This document shows, piece after piece, positions 787 through 45,594 of a stretch of 45,594 bases of DNA. Every line of letters begins with the position of its first letter. Position 1 is the stretch's first letter. The stretch is from a virus. The stretch lies in IMG/VR virus record IMGVR_UViG_3300041402_000679, positions 1 to 45,594 of that record; one strand, 5' to 3'. Position numbers and translations under genes: made by a program. The notes under the pieces are model-generated. The model saw only the letters and a program-made list of their open reading frames with translations. It ran no database searches and was not told where the DNA came from.

Positions 787-983
787 CGTAAAGCCAGCTA
801 TGTAAAGGGCTTAGCAGCAAGTCTTAATTACTTAATGTCTATTTCCATTTTATGTTTGCACTTTTGGCGGGGATGGTCGATAATTTATATAGCTATGAGA
901 CATAAACCCACAATAATTTATTCCGAATTTTGCAGAGCTGGCCGACTTAATCCCCGTCTCATAGCGGAGCTGGTCGGCTCTGC
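787..983 (+). ncRNA. Structured leader RNA of the rightward operon (left copy)
   Basis: Inverted repeats suggest a complex RNA. GTCTATTTCC (837-846) can pair with GGGGATGGTC (869-878). GCTATGAGAC (892-901) pairs perfectly with GTCTCATAGC (956-965). GCAGAG and CCGAC (932-946) pair with GTCGG and CTCTGC (973-983). The last two helices interleave as A-B-A'-B', a pseudoknot layout. The final helix is followed by TTTT and then the SD and start codon of the next gene, so it could act as a 5' UTR switch or attenuator. The right-end copy (45395-45594) keeps about 110 bp unchanged and preserves the first helix by compensating changes. No known riboswitch class was recognised. Confidence 0.55.
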
Positions 984-1000
984 TTTTATGAGGTGAAACT

Positions 1001-2104: not shown

Positions 2105-2115
2105 GACACGAGAAT

Positions 2116-2231
2116 AACCGGCGGCAGCGTGTAGGAAACGTAGCCAGAGATAATAAGATTAGGCGGCCGATAATAGAGGACTTAAACTCTGGTGGTTAGC
2201 AACAAGTAGGTGCAAATCCTGCCCGCCGGTT
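2116..2231 (+). ncRNA. tRNA-shaped structured RNA element, copy 1
   Basis: AACCGGCGG pairs with CCGCCGGTT as a 9-bp closing stem. Two bases later a D-arm-like hairpin forms (GCGT, loop GTAGGAA, ACGT). A long middle arm follows (GCCAGAG with CTCTGGT). Then a T-arm-like hairpin (GTAGG, loop TGCAAAT, CCTGC) abuts the 3' closing strand with no gap, exactly as in a tRNA. At 116 nt with a 64-nt middle section and no CCA, it is not a normal tRNA. A second element of the same plan is on the other strand at 13632-13752. Confidence 0.55.
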
Positions 2232-2268
2232 TGCAATAATAGGCTTATATGAAATAGGAGATAAGAAA

Positions 2269-6203: not shown

Positions 6204-6919
6204 CGTTTGCTTTTGCCGCCTAATCTGAAAACATTAAAAATCCGCAACCTGTCGCCGATTCTCTCATCGAAACTACTGGCCAGGTTTTCTACGCTTTTGT
6301 TTGAGGTCACAAAGGTTGGCCGATAATGTTCCAGCCTCATATCGAGCAAGACTAAAAATGTCTTTAGGCTGAAATCAGACTCCAAGCTGCCGATACTCTT
6401 GGTCGTACCCACATCCTCAATAAAGAGCTTATCACAGTTTAAGAATGGCTGAATAATGCCCCATTCGGTCTGTATAGCTTTGGGGTTAAAGGTATCTCTT
6501 AGCCGAAGGCACAACAGCTCGTAATGTATCCTTTCAACAGTAAAGCCTTCGGTTATATATTTCTTGGCTAAAGCTGACATCGCATAGGTCTTGCCCACCC
6601 CCGCAGCACCCCAAAGTAGTATGCCCGTATCAATTTCCTTACTGAATACGGCCTGTAATGCATGTGGCAACTTGGCAATTTCAGCCTTGATATACCGCTC
6701 TGGCACTGTTTCAAGTAATAATATCTCTTGCTGCTCTGCTGGTAGCGCCTTGTACCCTATTGCACGCTGGCAGACGTGGCATAGCTTGCCAAGTAAGCCG
6801 TCGGCGGCACGAACTTTGCATATTTCGCATTTACTCGATGGTTTCACCAATATTTGAGTCTTGGGCGGCGAAATCAGTTCGCCTATTTTGACTGTGTTTT
6901 TCAGTTTTCGGGACTCCAT
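6200..6919 (-). CDS. DnaC/IstB-like AAA+ helicase loader
   Basis: Start set at 6919 (MESRKLKNTV) because GGAGTAATT precedes that ATG; the open frame extends back to a TTG at 7006. The 239-residue product has an N-terminal CxxC...CxxC zinc knuckle (C31, C34, C47, C50), Walker A GAAGVGKT (104-111), Walker B LFIEDVG (165-171), and a TSN sensor segment (205-207). It should load the host replicative helicase on phage DNA with the neighbouring replisome organiser. The first 89 bases overlap that neighbour in another frame. Confidence 0.85.
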   Translation of the reverse strand: MESRKLKNTVKIGELISPPKTQILVKPSSKCEICKVRAADGLLGKLCHVCQRAIGYKALPAEQQEILLLETVPERYIKAEIAKLPHALQAVFSKEIDTGILLWGAAGVGKTYAMSALAKKYITEGFTVERIHYELLCLRLRDTFNPKAIQTEWGIIQPFLNCDKLFIEDVGTTKSIGSLESDFSLKTFLVLLDMRLEHYRPTFVTSNKSVENLASSFDERIGDRLRIFNVFRLGGKSKR

Positions 6920-7517
6920 AATTACTCCAAGTGATAATTTTTTGCTTCCAATTCCGAACTTTTTTGCCCTTGCTATCAACCCACCCTGATTCAGTAAAAT
7001 AGTCAAAGAATGTTTTTGCGTTCAATGTGTATTTTTTTTCTTGAATGTATTTTTCAACTTCTTGAAAGGTTGGTGGTGTGAATACTTTTTTGTTTTGTTT
7101 TACTTTACTTTCTTTTGTTTTATTTGGTTGGTTCGATGGCTGAACCGTGGTTGAACCGTGGTTAAACCGTGGTTGCCGTGCCGCCGCGCTTGCAAGTCCT
7201 GCTTTACGCTGATGTTGCAAGAATCTCTTTGCCTTAGCCAACTCTTTCCGCACTCTTTTGTGTGTTAAATAGCCATTTTTCTCAGCAAACTTTTTTTGCA
7301 CAGTTTTCCAGCTTGATTCAAAATTTATATCGGTATTACATAGTTTTTCTATGCGTTTCGGGTCATTCAAAATCTTGCCGTTATTGAGATACATATAGAA
7401 AATCACACTACAATATATCCCCCGCTCCGTGCTGTTCATTAGCTGAAAGTCAGGGTCGGCAAGGAAATCCCCCGATTCCAACTGGACATACTTTATATTA
7501 CCCATTTTATCATCCAT
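6831..7517 (-). CDS. Replication organiser / DnaD- or DUF1376-like initiation protein
   Basis: The 228-residue product (start chosen at MDDKMGNIKYVQLESG) has an N-terminal winged-helix-like region with the DUF1376-type phrase FLADPDFQLMNSTERGIY. A Gln/Asn-rich linker follows, then a C-terminal segment (YFTESGWVDSKGKKVRNWKQKIITW) typical of phage replication initiators ahead of a DnaC-like gene. It probably binds the phage origin and recruits the loader. The starting ATG is uncertain among three nearby candidates. Confidence 0.75.
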   Translation of the reverse strand: MDDKMGNIKYVQLESGDFLADPDFQLMNSTERGIYCSVIFYMYLNNGKILNDPKRIEKLCNTDINFESSWKTVQKKFAEKNGYLTHKRVRKELAKAKRFLQHQRKAGLASAAARQPRFNHGSTTVQPSNQPNKTKESKVKQNKKVFTPPTFQEVEKYIQEKKYTLNAKTFFDYFTESGWVDSKGKKVRNWKQKIITWSNYGVPKTEKHSQNRRTDFAAQDSNIGETIE

Positions 7518-7666
7518 AAGAAAAAAAGCCCCTTTGGTTGGTAGCAAATACGACAGAGTCGAAATGCACCGCAGGGGCTAATTTGAGCTTAATTAGATAT
7601 TCTATCGTACTCACTACCATTTCCCCTATCATACCCCCTACCAGGCTATTGTCAAGTAAAATATGA

Positions 7667-11991: not shown

Positions 11992-12169
11992 TTTTTTTAG
12001 GGCTTCTATGAAATTTTTTAATACATTTTTTACAGGTAACAGGTAACAAACTTTCGTCATCTGTAGCAATATGAGTCTTTTCATAACTAAGTCCGCAAAG
12101 TGTTTTTGCATCGTTACAATTCCAAGTAGCAGACATATAATGTACCTTGTATTTCGTTTCTTTGCTCAT
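11978..12169 (-). CDS. 63-residue VTCKKC protein
   Basis: The product (KVHYMSATWNCNDAKTLCGLSYEKTHIATDDESLLPVTCKKCIKKF) matches a common phage microprotein shape: a histidine/tyrosine start, CG-type site in the middle and VTCKKC near the end, suggesting zinc binding. Function unknown. ATGA overlap upstream. Confidence 0.7.
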   Translation of the reverse strand: MSKETKYKVHYMSATWNCNDAKTLCGLSYEKTHIATDDESLLPVTCKKCIKKFHRSPKKNEKI

Positions 12170-12312
12170 TGCTTCACCTCAAACTCTCTAACCCCCCACG
12201 CCAGAGCCTCAAATATCTCTAAGTTTTTTATGCCCTGTTCTGCTTGTTGTCTTTCCTTGCCTTCAGGCATTTCGCTAACTATTTGCTTCATTTTTTCTAT
12301 TGCTTTACTCAT
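12166..12312 (-). CDS. 48-residue protein sharing a C-terminal motif with the lysin
   Basis: A short helical protein (MSKAIEKMKQIVSEMPEGKE...) ends EALAWGVREFEVKQ. The EALAWGVRE segment is also the C-terminal end of the 3D-domain lysin two genes upstream, and the underlying 26 bases are identical (12185-12210 and 12528-12553). The gene overlaps both neighbours by the ATGA pattern. Function unknown. Confidence 0.6.
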   Translation of the reverse strand: MSKAIEKMKQIVSEMPEGKERQQAEQGIKNLEIFEALAWGVREFEVKQ

Positions 12313-12512
12313 TTTTTTATATCAAGTTCTGGCATTTGGAATCTTGTCTTGTCCCATCTGGCAATAATAGTAATTGCGTCTCCATCGTTTCTAATGCGAA
12401 CACTGTCGTTTGGAATACAAATATAAAGATGATGAAATCCACCACTACACTTTGATGAAAACCCTCCAACTGAATCTGAATGTCTTGATATGGTTATTTT
12501 TTGTTTTTTCAT
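12309..12512 (-). CDS. Unknown 67-residue protein
   Basis: Begins MKKQKITISRHSDSVGGFSSK and reads as a compact beta-rich protein with a YICIPNDSVRIRNDGDAI strand pattern. It lies between the lysin and the 48-residue protein and overlaps both. No family recognised. Confidence 0.6.
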   Translation of the reverse strand: MKKQKITISRHSDSVGGFSSKCSGGFHHLYICIPNDSVRIRNDGDAITIIARWDKTRFQMPELDIKK

Positions 12513-12961
12513 TGCTCAAGCCTCATTTCTCTAACCCCCCACGCCAGAGCCTCTTCGTGTCCATCTTTACCGCCGAAGAAAACATCGAGTCTGTTGCCTT
12601 GAATTGCAGAACCTCTGTCCTCTATGACTACCATACGGCCTCCTGCGTAGCCTGGTATGGATAATCTCATCCCAAAGGGGTATTCAGGCGGGGCAGCTAC
12701 AAATCTATCGCCAGGCTCTATGATATGACCACTTGCCGTTATCCCATCCGCAAAATCGCCACAGCAACAGAAATTTTGGCAATAGGCGGTAACTGTAAAA
12801 ATCGGGGCAGGTTGTGTAGGAGGAGTTTGGGAGGGAGAACCTGCCCCTGTATCACGGCTGGCTTCGGGTGGTGAAAAGCAAACTACCGCTAAGATACCTA
12901 AGATAATTCCTGCAATCAAGGCAACGATTACATCAATAATATCAAACTTGTTTCGGGTCAT
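12509..12961 (-). CDS. Membrane-anchored 3D-domain lysin (putative peptidoglycan-degrading enzyme)
   Basis: Residues 8-28 form one transmembrane segment. A Pro/Thr/Ser linker (31-53) leads to a double-psi beta-barrel 3D domain: FTVTAYC at 55-61, DGITASG, YPFGMRLSI, VVIEDRG with D115, and RLDVFF with D126. This domain occurs in MltA-like lytic transglycosylases and Bacillus YabE/YocH-type proteins. It is the best endolysin candidate, but lies in the early block away from the holin-like genes, and a signal-anchor form suggests SAR-like export. The last residues repeat a motif found at 12166-12312. Confidence 0.75.
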   Translation of the reverse strand: MTRNKFDIIDVIVALIAGIILGILAVVCFSPPEASRDTGAGSPSQTPPTQPAPIFTVTAYCQNFCCCGDFADGITASGHIIEPGDRFVAAPPEYPFGMRLSIPGYAGGRMVVIEDRGSAIQGNRLDVFFGGKDGHEEALAWGVREMRLEQ

Positions 12962-43537: not shown

Positions 43538-43965
43538 TATGCTGTCTCCCGTAACCTTATACCAGCTATGCGCTTAGCTTCAGACTTCTCTGATTCAGTT
43601 AATTGCCGCTGCTGGTCAGTGATGTCCTGGACCTTGTCAGTGTAAGCAGCTTCCGTGCGGCCTAAGCCCTCTACATTACGAGTGTAATTGACTAAATCGC
43701 CTTTTTCGAGCGATAAAGCCATTCCTGCCTCGTGTAATTCTCTTATGCGCTCGATTTTATCCTTGCTTTTATTCCTAATCTCCCTCATTTTGACCAGGAT
43801 TGCAGCCTTTACCTGTTCATTCTTGTATACCGCTTGGCCTCTACCTGACATTGCATAACTTTCTTTATAGCCTGTATCAATCATTGCTTTGGCCTTATTA
43901 AAGCCACTTGTGCAGTAGTTATGCGCTAATGTATCAATAGTTTCTTGATTTGCTATAGATGGCAT
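43537..43965 (-). CDS. terS: Terminase small subunit (full length)
   Basis: 142 residues. N-terminal HTH-like segment (LAHNYCTSGFNKAKAMIDTGYKESYAMSGRGQAVYKN, residues 13-49) and a central coiled coil (VKMREIRNKSKDKIERIRELHEAGM), the normal layout of phage small terminases. It recognises the packaging start site and loads terL. The same N-terminal segment is repeated at the left edge of the window. Confidence 0.85.
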   Translation of the reverse strand: MPSIANQETIDTLAHNYCTSGFNKAKAMIDTGYKESYAMSGRGQAVYKNEQVKAAILVKMREIRNKSKDKIERIRELHEAGMALSLEKGDLVNYTRNVEGLGRTEAAYTDKVQDITDQQRQLTESEKSEAKRIAGIRLRETA

Positions 43966-43989
43966 TGTTTATCCTTGAAAACGCACTTT

Positions 43990-44157
43990 TTAAGATTTCA
44001 AGAGCTTTTCAGCTCTTTTTATAAGTGGGCAGAGTATTGCTTGCCGGACTTTGTCAATTGCTTTATTGACTGCAATTGTTTCTGGCAGTTTATTGAATCT
44101 GTCCCAATTTTGCCTTATTTCTGTAGCTGTAAGTGTCTTTTCTTGGTTTTCGCTCAT
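43990..44157 (-). CDS. 55-residue unknown protein, only in right variant
   Basis: MSENQEKTLTATEIRQNWDRFNKLPETIAVNKAIDKVRQAILCPLIKRAEKLL with AAGG upstream. Helical, no motif. Absent from the left-hand variant. Confidence 0.5.
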   Translation of the reverse strand: MSENQEKTLTATEIRQNWDRFNKLPETIAVNKAIDKVRQAILCPLIKRAEKLLKS

Positions 44158-44169
44158 TCTGAAGCCTTA

Positions 44170-44403
44170 TTACTGATTTTCATACTTAGCTGGTCTCATA
44201 GCTTCCTCACCATAATCATCGTATGAAACACCTGTGATATTACAAATAGGATTTCCATCAAACCGAACAACAGGTCTATCTTTTCTTTCGTCCACACCTT
44301 GTTGACCACGACCAATACAGCGATAGCAACACCCTCCGCTGGCTGTAGTATCACGCCCACAGCCTAAACAACACATTATTTCAAAGTTTGGATTTACACT
44401 CAT
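44170..44403 (-). CDS. 77-residue cysteine-rich protein, only in right variant
   Basis: Begins MSVNPNFEIMCCLGCGRDTTASGGCCYRCIGRGQQG, three cysteine pairs, so a zinc-binding start, then an acidic tail. Absent from the left variant. Function unknown. Confidence 0.55.
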   Translation of the reverse strand: MSVNPNFEIMCCLGCGRDTTASGGCCYRCIGRGQQGVDERKDRPVVRFDGNPICNITGVSYDDYGEEAMRPAKYENQ

Positions 44404-44434
44404 TTTTTAGCTTTCTTATCTGGCTTTTCGACCC

Positions 44435-44542
44435 TTACTTATCCTTGAAATCACAGTTGTCTTTGAAGATACACTTGTCATTTACCCAGTATCGGCAGTA
44501 TTTAGTACAATATCGTAATTTCCAGCCTTTTTGTGGTCTCAT
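44435..44542 (-). CDS. 35-residue cysteine-rich protein (right variant)
   Basis: Almost identical to the gene at 126-233 (differences near LK/QK and the tail). Conserved between variants, which supports coding. An in-frame ATG lies two codons upstream. Confidence 0.55.
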   Translation of the reverse strand: MRPQKGWKLRYCTKYCRYWVNDKCIFKDNCDFKDK

Positions 44543-44606
44543 ATTCATAGTAAAGCTACCGCAATTTCCGCCTCCGGATGCGGCCAACGGTCGTGATTAA
44601 GTTGTT

Positions 44607-44702
44607 TTAGCACTGGCGGATGCCTTTAGTATAACCACCATCGAGTTCCCCGACAGTGGCGGGTATGCGTCCACACCTCTTAATATAAATCCTTTTAATC
44701 AT
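44607..44702 (-). CDS. 31-residue frame, weak support
   Basis: MIKRIYIKRCGRIPATVGELDGGYTKGIRQC. No strong ribosome site; right-variant only. Included because it is the only reasonable frame in this piece. Could be noncoding. Confidence 0.25.
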   Translation of the reverse strand: MIKRIYIKRCGRIPATVGELDGGYTKGIRQC

Positions 44703-44710
44703 TCATTACT

Positions 44711-44782
44711 CACTTAAAATAGGGCGGCAACTCTCTTTACATCCGTTAGTATTTATGTATCGTTATCCGCCCTGGTTAAATC
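44711..44782. repeat. GGGCGG stem element, copy 2
   Basis: Same as the element at 403-474, with AGGGCGG (44721-44727) and CCGCCCT (44767-44773) able to pair. It underlies the 3' end of the 54-residue zinc protein gene. Confidence 0.5.
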
Positions 44783-44917
44783 AGAAATCTCTACACTGCC
44801 CTTGCCACTGCACATAGGACAAACTTCAAGTAATGGCAAACCCTCATCGTTTGTATTCATTCCACGTATTTTGCCTTTGCCATAACTGCATATTGGGCAT
44901 TTTTCAGTGTGTGCCAT
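44753..44917 (-). CDS. DnaJ-type zinc-finger microprotein, 54 residues (right copy)
   Basis: Same protein as at 445-609 with one synonymous base change. Two CxxCxxGKG-like sites (C7/C10, C33/C36). In this variant a second stem element (44925-44994) follows its 5' side. Confidence 0.65.
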   Translation of the reverse strand: MAHTEKCPICSYGKGKIRGMNTNDEGLPLLEVCPMCSGKGSVEISDLTRADNDT

Positions 44918-44924
44918 TCCTTCT

Positions 44925-44994
44925 CACTTAAAATAGGGCGAGTACCTTTTTTATGTTCTTTGTACATTTGTTTGCTACCCGCCCTTGTTTAATC
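44925..44994. repeat. GGGCGG stem element, copy 3
   Basis: Shares the flanks (CACTTAAAATAGGGCG ... CGCCCTTGTTTAA) with copies 1 and 2 but the interior differs. The 10-bp stem AGGGCGAGTA (44935-44944) with TACCCGCCCT (44976-44985) still forms. Present only in the right variant. Confidence 0.5.
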
Positions 44995-44996
44995 AT
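44928..44996 (-). CDS. 22-residue frame over the stem element
   Basis: MIKQGRVANKCTKNIKKVLALF coincides with stem element copy 3. It may be coding, or the element may only be structural. Weak ribosome site. Confidence 0.25.
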   Translation of the reverse strand: MIKQGRVANKCTKNIKKVLALF

Positions 44997-45025
44997 ATGC
45001 TTGCTTTCGACTTGATTGTCCCTCA

Positions 45026-45063
45026 TTAAAAAGAAGCCGCCAAGAGGGAAATTCCTGACGGCT
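45026..45063 (-). terminator. Intrinsic terminator in the leftward leader (right variant)
   Basis: AGCCGTCA (45063-45056) pairs with TGGCGGCT (45042-45035), 8 bp with one wobble, followed by TCTTTTTAA on the minus strand. It lies between the promoter at 45349-45377 and the accessory/terS genes, so it would work as an attenuator unless antitermination occurs. No equivalent is visible in the left variant. Confidence 0.6.
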
Positions 45064-45191
45064 CAAGAGAACCTCAAAAACGAGGGTTAAATTAACATTT
45101 AACATATTTTTCGCTCTGTTTAGTAAATATCTAACATCTTAAATAAAGCAAGTTTAATCGGATTACAACCTCAGGTTTCAGGGTTTTTATA

Positions 45192-45341
45192 TCATAGACC
45201 TTTATGCGTTATTGCAGGGGAATGGCTCAGCACTTTGGTTATCCGATTTGTGCCTGACACGACCGGCGGGTTCCGATTCGTCCTTGCTTTGTCAGTTTCT
45301 CTTGCCATTGCCTTACATCCCTTGATTCGAGGTTCTCGCAT
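45192..45341 (-). CDS. 49-residue leader ORF, weak support
   Basis: The frame could start at 45341 (MREPRIKGCKAM...) or at 45305; AAGGGA precedes the second. Basic product (MARETDKARTNRNPPVVSG) without recognised domain. It lies between promoter and terminator. May be a leader peptide or noncoding. Confidence 0.3.
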   Translation of the reverse strand: MREPRIKGCKAMARETDKARTNRNPPVVSGTNRITKVLSHSPAITHKGL

Positions 45342-45348
45342 ATCTATT

Positions 45349-45377
45349 ATTAAAACGGCATTCTCAAGGATTGTCAA
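45349..45377 (-). promoter_or_regulatory. Leftward promoter at the right end
   Basis: Minus-strand TTGACA (45377-45372), 17-base spacer, TTTAAT (45354-45349). Close to the sigma70 consensus. The same place in the left variant has TTGACT and a weaker -10. It overlaps the back of the rightward structured leader, so the two operons diverge here. Confidence 0.65.
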
Positions 45378-45394
45378 TAGGAAAATTCACATAT

Positions 45395-45594
45395 TTTGTA
45401 AAGCCAGCTATGTAAAGGGCTTACAAACGAGTCTTATTAACTTAATGTCCATTTTCATTTTATGTTTGCACTTTTGGCAAAAATGGACGACACTTTATAT
45501 AGCTATGAGACATAAACCCACAATAATTTATTCCGAATTTTGCAGAGCTGGCCGACTTAATCCCCGTCTCATAGCGGAGCTGGTCGGCTCTGCT
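45395..45594 (+). ncRNA. Structured leader RNA (right copy, runs to window end)
   Basis: Second version of the element at 787-983. An extra outer stem TTTGTAA-GCC / GGCTTACAAA is possible here. The helix GTCCATTTT (45447-45455) with AAAATGGAC (45480-45488) is perfect, while its sequence differs from the left copy at several paired positions. The final ~110 bases, including both pseudoknot helices, are identical. The window stops 17 bases before the matching start codon. Confidence 0.55.

Follow-up and report, generated by a model that had tools for sequence, protein, structure and literature searches.

The window, that is, the whole stretch of DNA analyzed here, comprises the 45,594 nt of the IMG/VR virus record IMGVR_UViG_3300041402_000679. 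It represents the genome of a podovirus-like phage, with a portal protein (PF12236) and matches to terminase, capsid, and tail proteins, and relatives of this phage exist in IMG/VR. The gene at positions 1001–1270 of the plus strand encodes a protein of 89 aa, for which no family match was found and whose remote relatives are encoded on L003 and L004. Elsewhere in the window, we noted a tRNA-like or otherwise structured element at 2115–2232 (plus strand; fold of −38.8 kcal/mol) with a CCGGCGG/CCGCCGG closing stem, a T-arm-like GTAGG-TGCAAAT-CCTGC, and additional small stems, in which ARAGORN detected no tRNA, even with introns allowed. Furthermore, a 54-nt direct repeat occurs at 12157–12210 and 12500–12553, with 80% identity and CTCTAACCCCCCACGCCAGAGCCTC in common.

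Directly upstream of the 89-aa gene, two helices interleave in the order A-B-A′-B′ (site 1, positions 892–983, plus strand). Helix A pairs 892–901 (GCTATGAGAC) perfectly with 956–965 (GTCTCATAGC), and helix B connects 932–946 with 973–983 through 11 pairs and a 4-nt bulge. Both helices and their interleaving had been proposed in a preliminary description of this DNA and were confirmed in the sequence. Other registers of helix B (e.g., 932–948/967–983) yield even more pairs. The 5′ strands of the two helices are separated by loop L1 (902–931), which is poor in G, and B′ is followed by a U-run (TTTT, 984–987), the Shine-Dalgarno (SD) sequence GAGGTG (990–995), and the ATG at 1001. The best combination of A and B at site 1 reached −48.6 kcal/mol, a value from a simple stack sum allowing at most one mismatch, which ranks sites and is not a true folding energy; none of 1000 dinucleotide shuffles attained it (mean −19.4, minimum −37.1). 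The ordinary nested minimum free energy fold of 787–1003 was not unusual (z = −0.71), because nested folding is unable to hold helices A and B together; only the interleaved pair stands out. Alternative folds of the leader without a pseudoknot differ by a few kcal/mol only, too little to discriminate between the states. The SD region (987–992) can also pair with 958–963, in an alternative local hairpin with 964–971/976–983. Another helix, 793–806/929–942, which would provide the 5′ strand of B with a different partner, was set aside, as it lies upstream of the predicted promoter. We conclude that the A-B-A′-B′ pseudoknot of site 1 is real.

The same region carries a leader ORF of 33 codons (MRHKPTIIYSEFCRAGRLNPRLIAELVGSAFMR; 895–996, plus strand), which starts with the ATG at 895–897 inside the 5′ strand of helix A and stops with the TGA at 994–996. 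The preliminary description had read the region as a plain 5′ UTR; it was right about the structured leader and overlooked this ORF. A weak promoter is predicted at 855–884 of the plus strand (TTTGCA-N18-GATAAT or TTGCAC-N17-GATAAT). As 85 of 500 shuffles scored equally well and the right-end allele has GACACT in place of the −10 element, the RNA start at site 1 is only putative.

A second pseudoknot is located on the minus strand of the window (site 2, 7619–7527), ahead of a gene for a 224-aa protein with a DUF1376 domain (6831–7505). Here, helix A is formed by TGGTAGTGAGTACGATAGA (7601–7619) and TCTGTCGTATTTGCTACCA (7539–7557), and helix B by AGCCCCT (7573–7579) and AGGGGCT (7527–7533), followed by TTTTTTCTT (7526–7518). 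The leader ORF spans 36 codons (MVVSTIEYLIKLKLAPAVHFDSVVFATNQRGFFSYG; 7510–7620), and a TTGACA-N16-TATGAT promoter is predicted at 7628–7655.

The preliminary description had compared site 1 with its copy at the right end of the window and had taken 110 unchanged bases around the pseudoknot, together with a compensatory change in a third helix, as signs of selection on RNA structure. The exact copy in fact comprises 101 bases (884–984 = 45494–45594, plus strand) and ends on the last base of the contig. The left end of the window shows a further exact overlap of 127 bases (1–127 = 43840–43966), and 127 is a usual largest k-mer in de Bruijn assemblers. Between the exact overlaps, the right end matches the left one in a diverged and rearranged form (1–985 versus 43840–45594). 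On the simplest reading, the genome is probably circular, with a size of approximately 43.8 kb, and derives from two coexisting strains, the second allele of the variable region (43967–45493) being placed at the contig end. The 101 unchanged bases would then mark the point where the strain alleles merge, so that this invariance reflects an assembly boundary and provides no evidence of constraint. The copy at 45494–45594 is probably the same locus in the allele of the second strain and not an independent one; in view of the exact overlaps of 127 and 101 bases, we rejected the terminal copies as independent homologues. The third helix (837–846/869–878, plus strand) does retain 9 of 10 pairs in both copies, and a single pair (845/870) shows a true two-sided change. 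This has a probability of 0.011 given the changed positions, but with seven comparable helices in 753–883 to choose from, it is not significant. Since the helix overlaps and precedes the predicted promoter (about 855–884), it is probably absent from the site 1 transcript, and we judged it (837–878) to lie outside the RNA. Thus, the change cannot serve as covariation evidence. In the same terminal regions, we observed a hairpin-like repeat, GGGCGG...CGCCCTATTTTAAGTGA, at 402–465, 44710–44773, and 44924–44985 (minus strand), upstream of small minus-strand genes.

Sequence searches (blastn of phage records, exact patterns in viral contigs, and blastn of the relatives) yielded no homologues of the leader. 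Homologues emerged once we inspected the corresponding intergenic region, ahead of the first rightward gene, in related phages, where the A-B-A′-B′ order is kept and the letters are entirely different. In G004, an 18-bp helix A (GATGATTACTTGGCTAAA/TTTAGCCGAGTAATCGTT) and a 12-bp helix B (GCCCGCTGGCAC/GTGTCGGCGGGC) precede TTTATTTAAGGAG..ATG; in G009, both helices are bulged and TTTTATAAAAGGAG..ATG follows. Altogether, related phage contigs contained about 18 pseudoknots beyond the two of the window, with unrelated stem sequences. Of the 20 distinct members kept by hand, ten come in pairs from the window, G004, G006, G009, and G016, and the other ten occur singly, in G005, G007, G021, and seven fragments. 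Six further candidates (G004c, G009c, L031, L134, L139, and L165) had a strong B-like stem and were left out because helix A or the context was unconvincing. One of these contigs, L165, was a scan outlier, with interleaved inverted repeats of great length (14 and 29 bp, −82 kcal/mol) at about 2850–2995 of the plus strand and no U-run. Nothing convincing was found in G014, G015, G017–G020, or two named out-group phages. L003 and L004, which carry the relatives of the gene after site 1, have no such leader, and in the DUF1376 relative L066 coding sequence occupies its place.

A topology scan of 539 kb, performed without any rule on neighboring genes, returned six non-redundant sites at or below −44 kcal/mol, a count that leaves out the right-end repeat of site 1, which is cut by the contig end. 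All six had TTT directly after the structure and a start codon no more than 25 nt further on, and one of the six was site 2 of the window. Scans of gene starts were compared with shuffles that keep base composition only. For starts with an SD sequence, 26 real hits at or below −36 contrasted with 2 shuffled ones, and requiring an upstream ORF as well left 14 real versus 0.7 shuffled. Among 10,814 distinct gene starts from all loci, 19 real and no shuffled cases reached −40 kcal/mol or lower with a U-rich tail. The test on individual leaders, which keeps dinucleotides (1000 shuffles each), revealed that 12 of 13 leaders beat all their shuffles; the remaining one was matched by two.

Comparisons between members provided additional information. 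In the contigs L158 and L159, the 279 nt through the promoter show 92% identity, nothing is shared thereafter, and both have a long A-B-A′-B′ structure. From the sequences, it looks as if leader and gene had been swapped together as a cassette at the promoter–leader border, with the fold kept. In an alignment by eye of G004a and G007a, helix A showed a single two-sided change and a single replacement of U-G by C-G, with every pair intact; the reading frame is restored by indels in L1 and B, and B still forms. The pooled L1 loops of the members contain 46% A and 7% G. The genes after the element encode small proteins or a DUF1376 protein and show no relationship among themselves, indicating that the element is not tied to one gene. 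The leaders very probably constitute a family of RNAs under selection. The preliminary description had already claimed a selected structured leader; about 20 sites, always just before a gene, support that claim, while the arguments originally offered for it were weak.

In 19 of 20 members, allowing for a choice among nearby start codons, a leader ORF is open through the structure and begins with ATG (once TTG) 97–136 nt upstream of the gene; L159, an exception, has a stop codon inside the leader. Dinucleotide shuffling predicts that only 2.5 of 13 leader ORFs would be open. As three of the scans had selected members by fold, SD sequence, and gene start, and not by this ORF, its openness is largely independent evidence. 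The ORF starts in or adjoining helix A. Of the 12 structures drawn, 10 have the start codon within the helix, as does G009b by inspection (AAAATGCACGGT/ACCGTGCATTTT). The stop falls within −8 to +1 of the next gene's start in 12 of 20 members. Codon usage of the leader ORFs was neutral (about 0, versus 0.18 ± 0.09 for 36-codon pieces of structural genes), and the window's other small genes likewise scattered around 0. Only openness and this calibrated value were used, since stop codons in the other frames account in part for the outcome of the frame-wise comparison. The leader peptides, compared across the members, are not conserved and have no codon run in common that could act as control codons. 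Neutral codon usage and unconserved peptides suggest that the act of leader translation, rather than the peptide, is likely what counts.

A predicted sigma70-like promoter is usually found just upstream of the element. Nine of the 13 curated members have a TTGAC-type −35 element close upstream and a −10 element that would place the RNA start at or shortly before helix A; two members, G016a and G016b, have no clear promoter. Several of the transcripts would be leaderless or nearly so with respect to the leader ORF. In most members, a U-rich tract directly follows the GC-rich B:B′ stem, and many of these tracts are short and interrupted by A. A terminator scan permitting only short loops called no intrinsic terminator. 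The next genes mostly possess a good SD sequence 15–25 nt past the stem, which the pseudoknot leaves free.

The element was compared with known systems. Covariance models of Rfam 15 gave no match at the gathering score for the window and eight member loci, and relaxed thresholds returned chance-level matches only; a known riboswitch, ribozyme, or other Rfam family was rejected for this reason. No published description of such an element was found in a search that covered mostly non-subscription literature, so that this absence is weak evidence. In the IncI-alpha plasmid ColIb-P9 (repY-repZ) and in IncL/M plasmids (repA), an antisense RNA controls the pseudoknot that activates a single replication gene. 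For these leaders, PMC10724649 cites Asano and Mizobuchi (1998) and Athanasopoulos (1999). The phage element appears similar in that a leader peptide ORF stops close to where the next gene begins and interleaved helices, beyond what shuffles produce, lie upstream of the SD sequence; in the IncI type, the leader pseudoknot decides on translation there. In contrast, the phage pseudoknot is the larger one, contains the start codon of the leader itself, has a U-rich tract behind it, and precedes many unrelated genes, for small proteins or a DUF1376 protein, instead of a plasmid replication initiator. Because the regulated gene differs, we do not claim membership in the IncI type, whose leader-peptide/pseudoknot control is the closest working analogy.

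The trp, his, and pyrBI attenuators combine a promoter-proximal short ORF, a GC-rich stem, a U-rich tract, and ribosome-dependent folding. The phage leaders seem to resemble them in the arrangement of a short ORF ahead of a GC-rich stem and a U-rich tract. They differ in lacking a run of control codons and a conserved peptide, and their terminator-like stem, whose loop measures about 30 nt, is one of the two helices of a pseudoknot, whereas the classical attenuators use a simple hairpin and a rival antiterminator. At the 5′ end of the T4 gene 32 mRNA, the product of that gene binds a leader pseudoknot, and there is no leader ORF; the phage element shares the pseudoknot at the mRNA 5′ end and differs by its leader ORF and its mutually unrelated next genes. 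The Downstream-peptide and glnA motifs (RF01704 and relatives), which also occur in aquatic bacteria (PMC2864571), likewise combine a structured leader RNA with a short ORF. In those motifs, the RNA has the ORF downstream of it and is conserved in sequence; neither applies to the phage element, which matched no Rfam family.

Our preferred explanation, which we put forward tentatively, is a leader-ORF-coupled pseudoknot attenuator that checks the nascent mRNA for a ribosome. The sequences show the anatomy, recurrence, statistics, and open leader ORFs described above; the transcription starts, termination, coupling, and the sign and level of control (transcription or translation) are inferred. 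The functional order would be promoter, helix A at or near the RNA 5′ end, A/C-rich loop, B, A′, B′, U-rich tract, SD sequence, and gene, with the leader start codon usually in the 5′ strand of helix A and the leader ORF usually ending at or near the next start. A ribosome would have to load on the leader AUG while RNA polymerase transcribes the roughly 60 nt up to A′. Once loaded, it would keep A and B open, allow RNA polymerase to pass the U-tract, and reach the next gene's start by termination–reinitiation. Without a ribosome, A:A′ would lock the leader AUG and B:B′ would form as the U-rich tract is made, so that transcription would end or leader and next gene would remain untranslated.

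The attenuator is supported by the recurrent topology with unrelated stems, the shuffle statistics, the open leader ORFs with stops near the next start, the AUG in helix A, the TTGAC-type −35 elements, the GC-rich stem with its U-rich tract, the unrelated genes, and the swap between L158 and L159. Against it speak the short, A-interrupted U-tracts, the absence of calls in the short-loop terminator scan, the neutral codon usage, the unconserved peptides, the stop in L159, the weak site 1 promoter with the altered −10 element of its allele, and the missing clear promoters of G016a and G016b. In members with a long helix A and a short L2 (e.g., G005a), the full helices may be alternatives rather than parts of one pseudoknot, and the sign of control could be reversed. 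The preliminary description had left the choice between a switch, an attenuator, and a stand-alone phage RNA. A switch or attenuator is the best reading, and a stand-alone RNA is unsupported, since all members lie immediately ahead of gene starts.

The main rival is a coupling of the repY-repZ type that acts on translation only, in which the pseudoknot bars ribosomes, leader translation opens it, and reinitiation occurs at the next gene, with no termination at the U-tract. The position of the leader stops at or near the next start, the alternative site 1 hairpin that pairs 958–963 with the SD region (987–992), and the apparent lack of own promoters in G016a and G016b are consistent with this mechanism. 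It is nevertheless somewhat unlikely, given that the good SD sequences mostly lie 15–25 nt beyond the stem, where the pseudoknot itself leaves them free, and that it has no need for the U-rich tract found directly after B′ in most members. Alternatively, a pseudoknot at the 5′ end could guard the mRNA against 5′-dependent decay or shape a ribosome standby site, without any switching and with the leader ORF as a by-product. Such a role would agree with the position of helix A, whose start in most members coincides with the predicted RNA 5′ end or is close to it, with stem letters that are free to vary, and with neutral codon usage; we consider it improbable, as it leaves unexplained why the ORF stays uninterrupted across the structure and terminates at the next start and why a U-rich tract occupies a fixed place. 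Binding of a specific ligand, or of a protein from phage or host, as in a riboswitch or operator, appears very unlikely: two interleaved helices and a G-poor, A-rich loop recall ligand-binding pseudoknots in outline, but binding sites usually keep some letters, and the members have neither a conserved core beyond the A/C-rich L1 nor an Rfam match. Chance pairing combined with an assembly duplicate, which would account for the terminal copies, the third helix, and the ordinary nested fold, is scarcely credible in view of about 20 sites versus none in shuffles, the tests on individual leaders, and the second site in the window.

Taken together, the data point to a new kind of gene-expression control element at the start of several transcripts of these uncultivated phages, in which fold, ORF, and position before a gene are kept while the letters are almost completely different. 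Because its members share almost no alignable sequence, RNA discovery based on sequence would miss the element, which was found through topology and context. Leader-peptide control and pseudoknot control are each known; a pseudoknot inside a leader ORF, repeated in one phage lineage before unrelated genes and lacking conserved stem sequences, had no counterpart in Rfam or in the literature covered. It is possible, rather than probable, that the start codon of a near-leaderless ORF is locked by the pseudoknot, which closes on a pseudoknotted terminator, with exchangeable stems and in several operons per genome; such a cassette would verify in general that the polymerase has a ribosome behind it, and would move as a module together with its gene. 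If the terminator is indeed opened by translation, the element would offer these phages a compact, sequence-independent way to tie transcription to translation.
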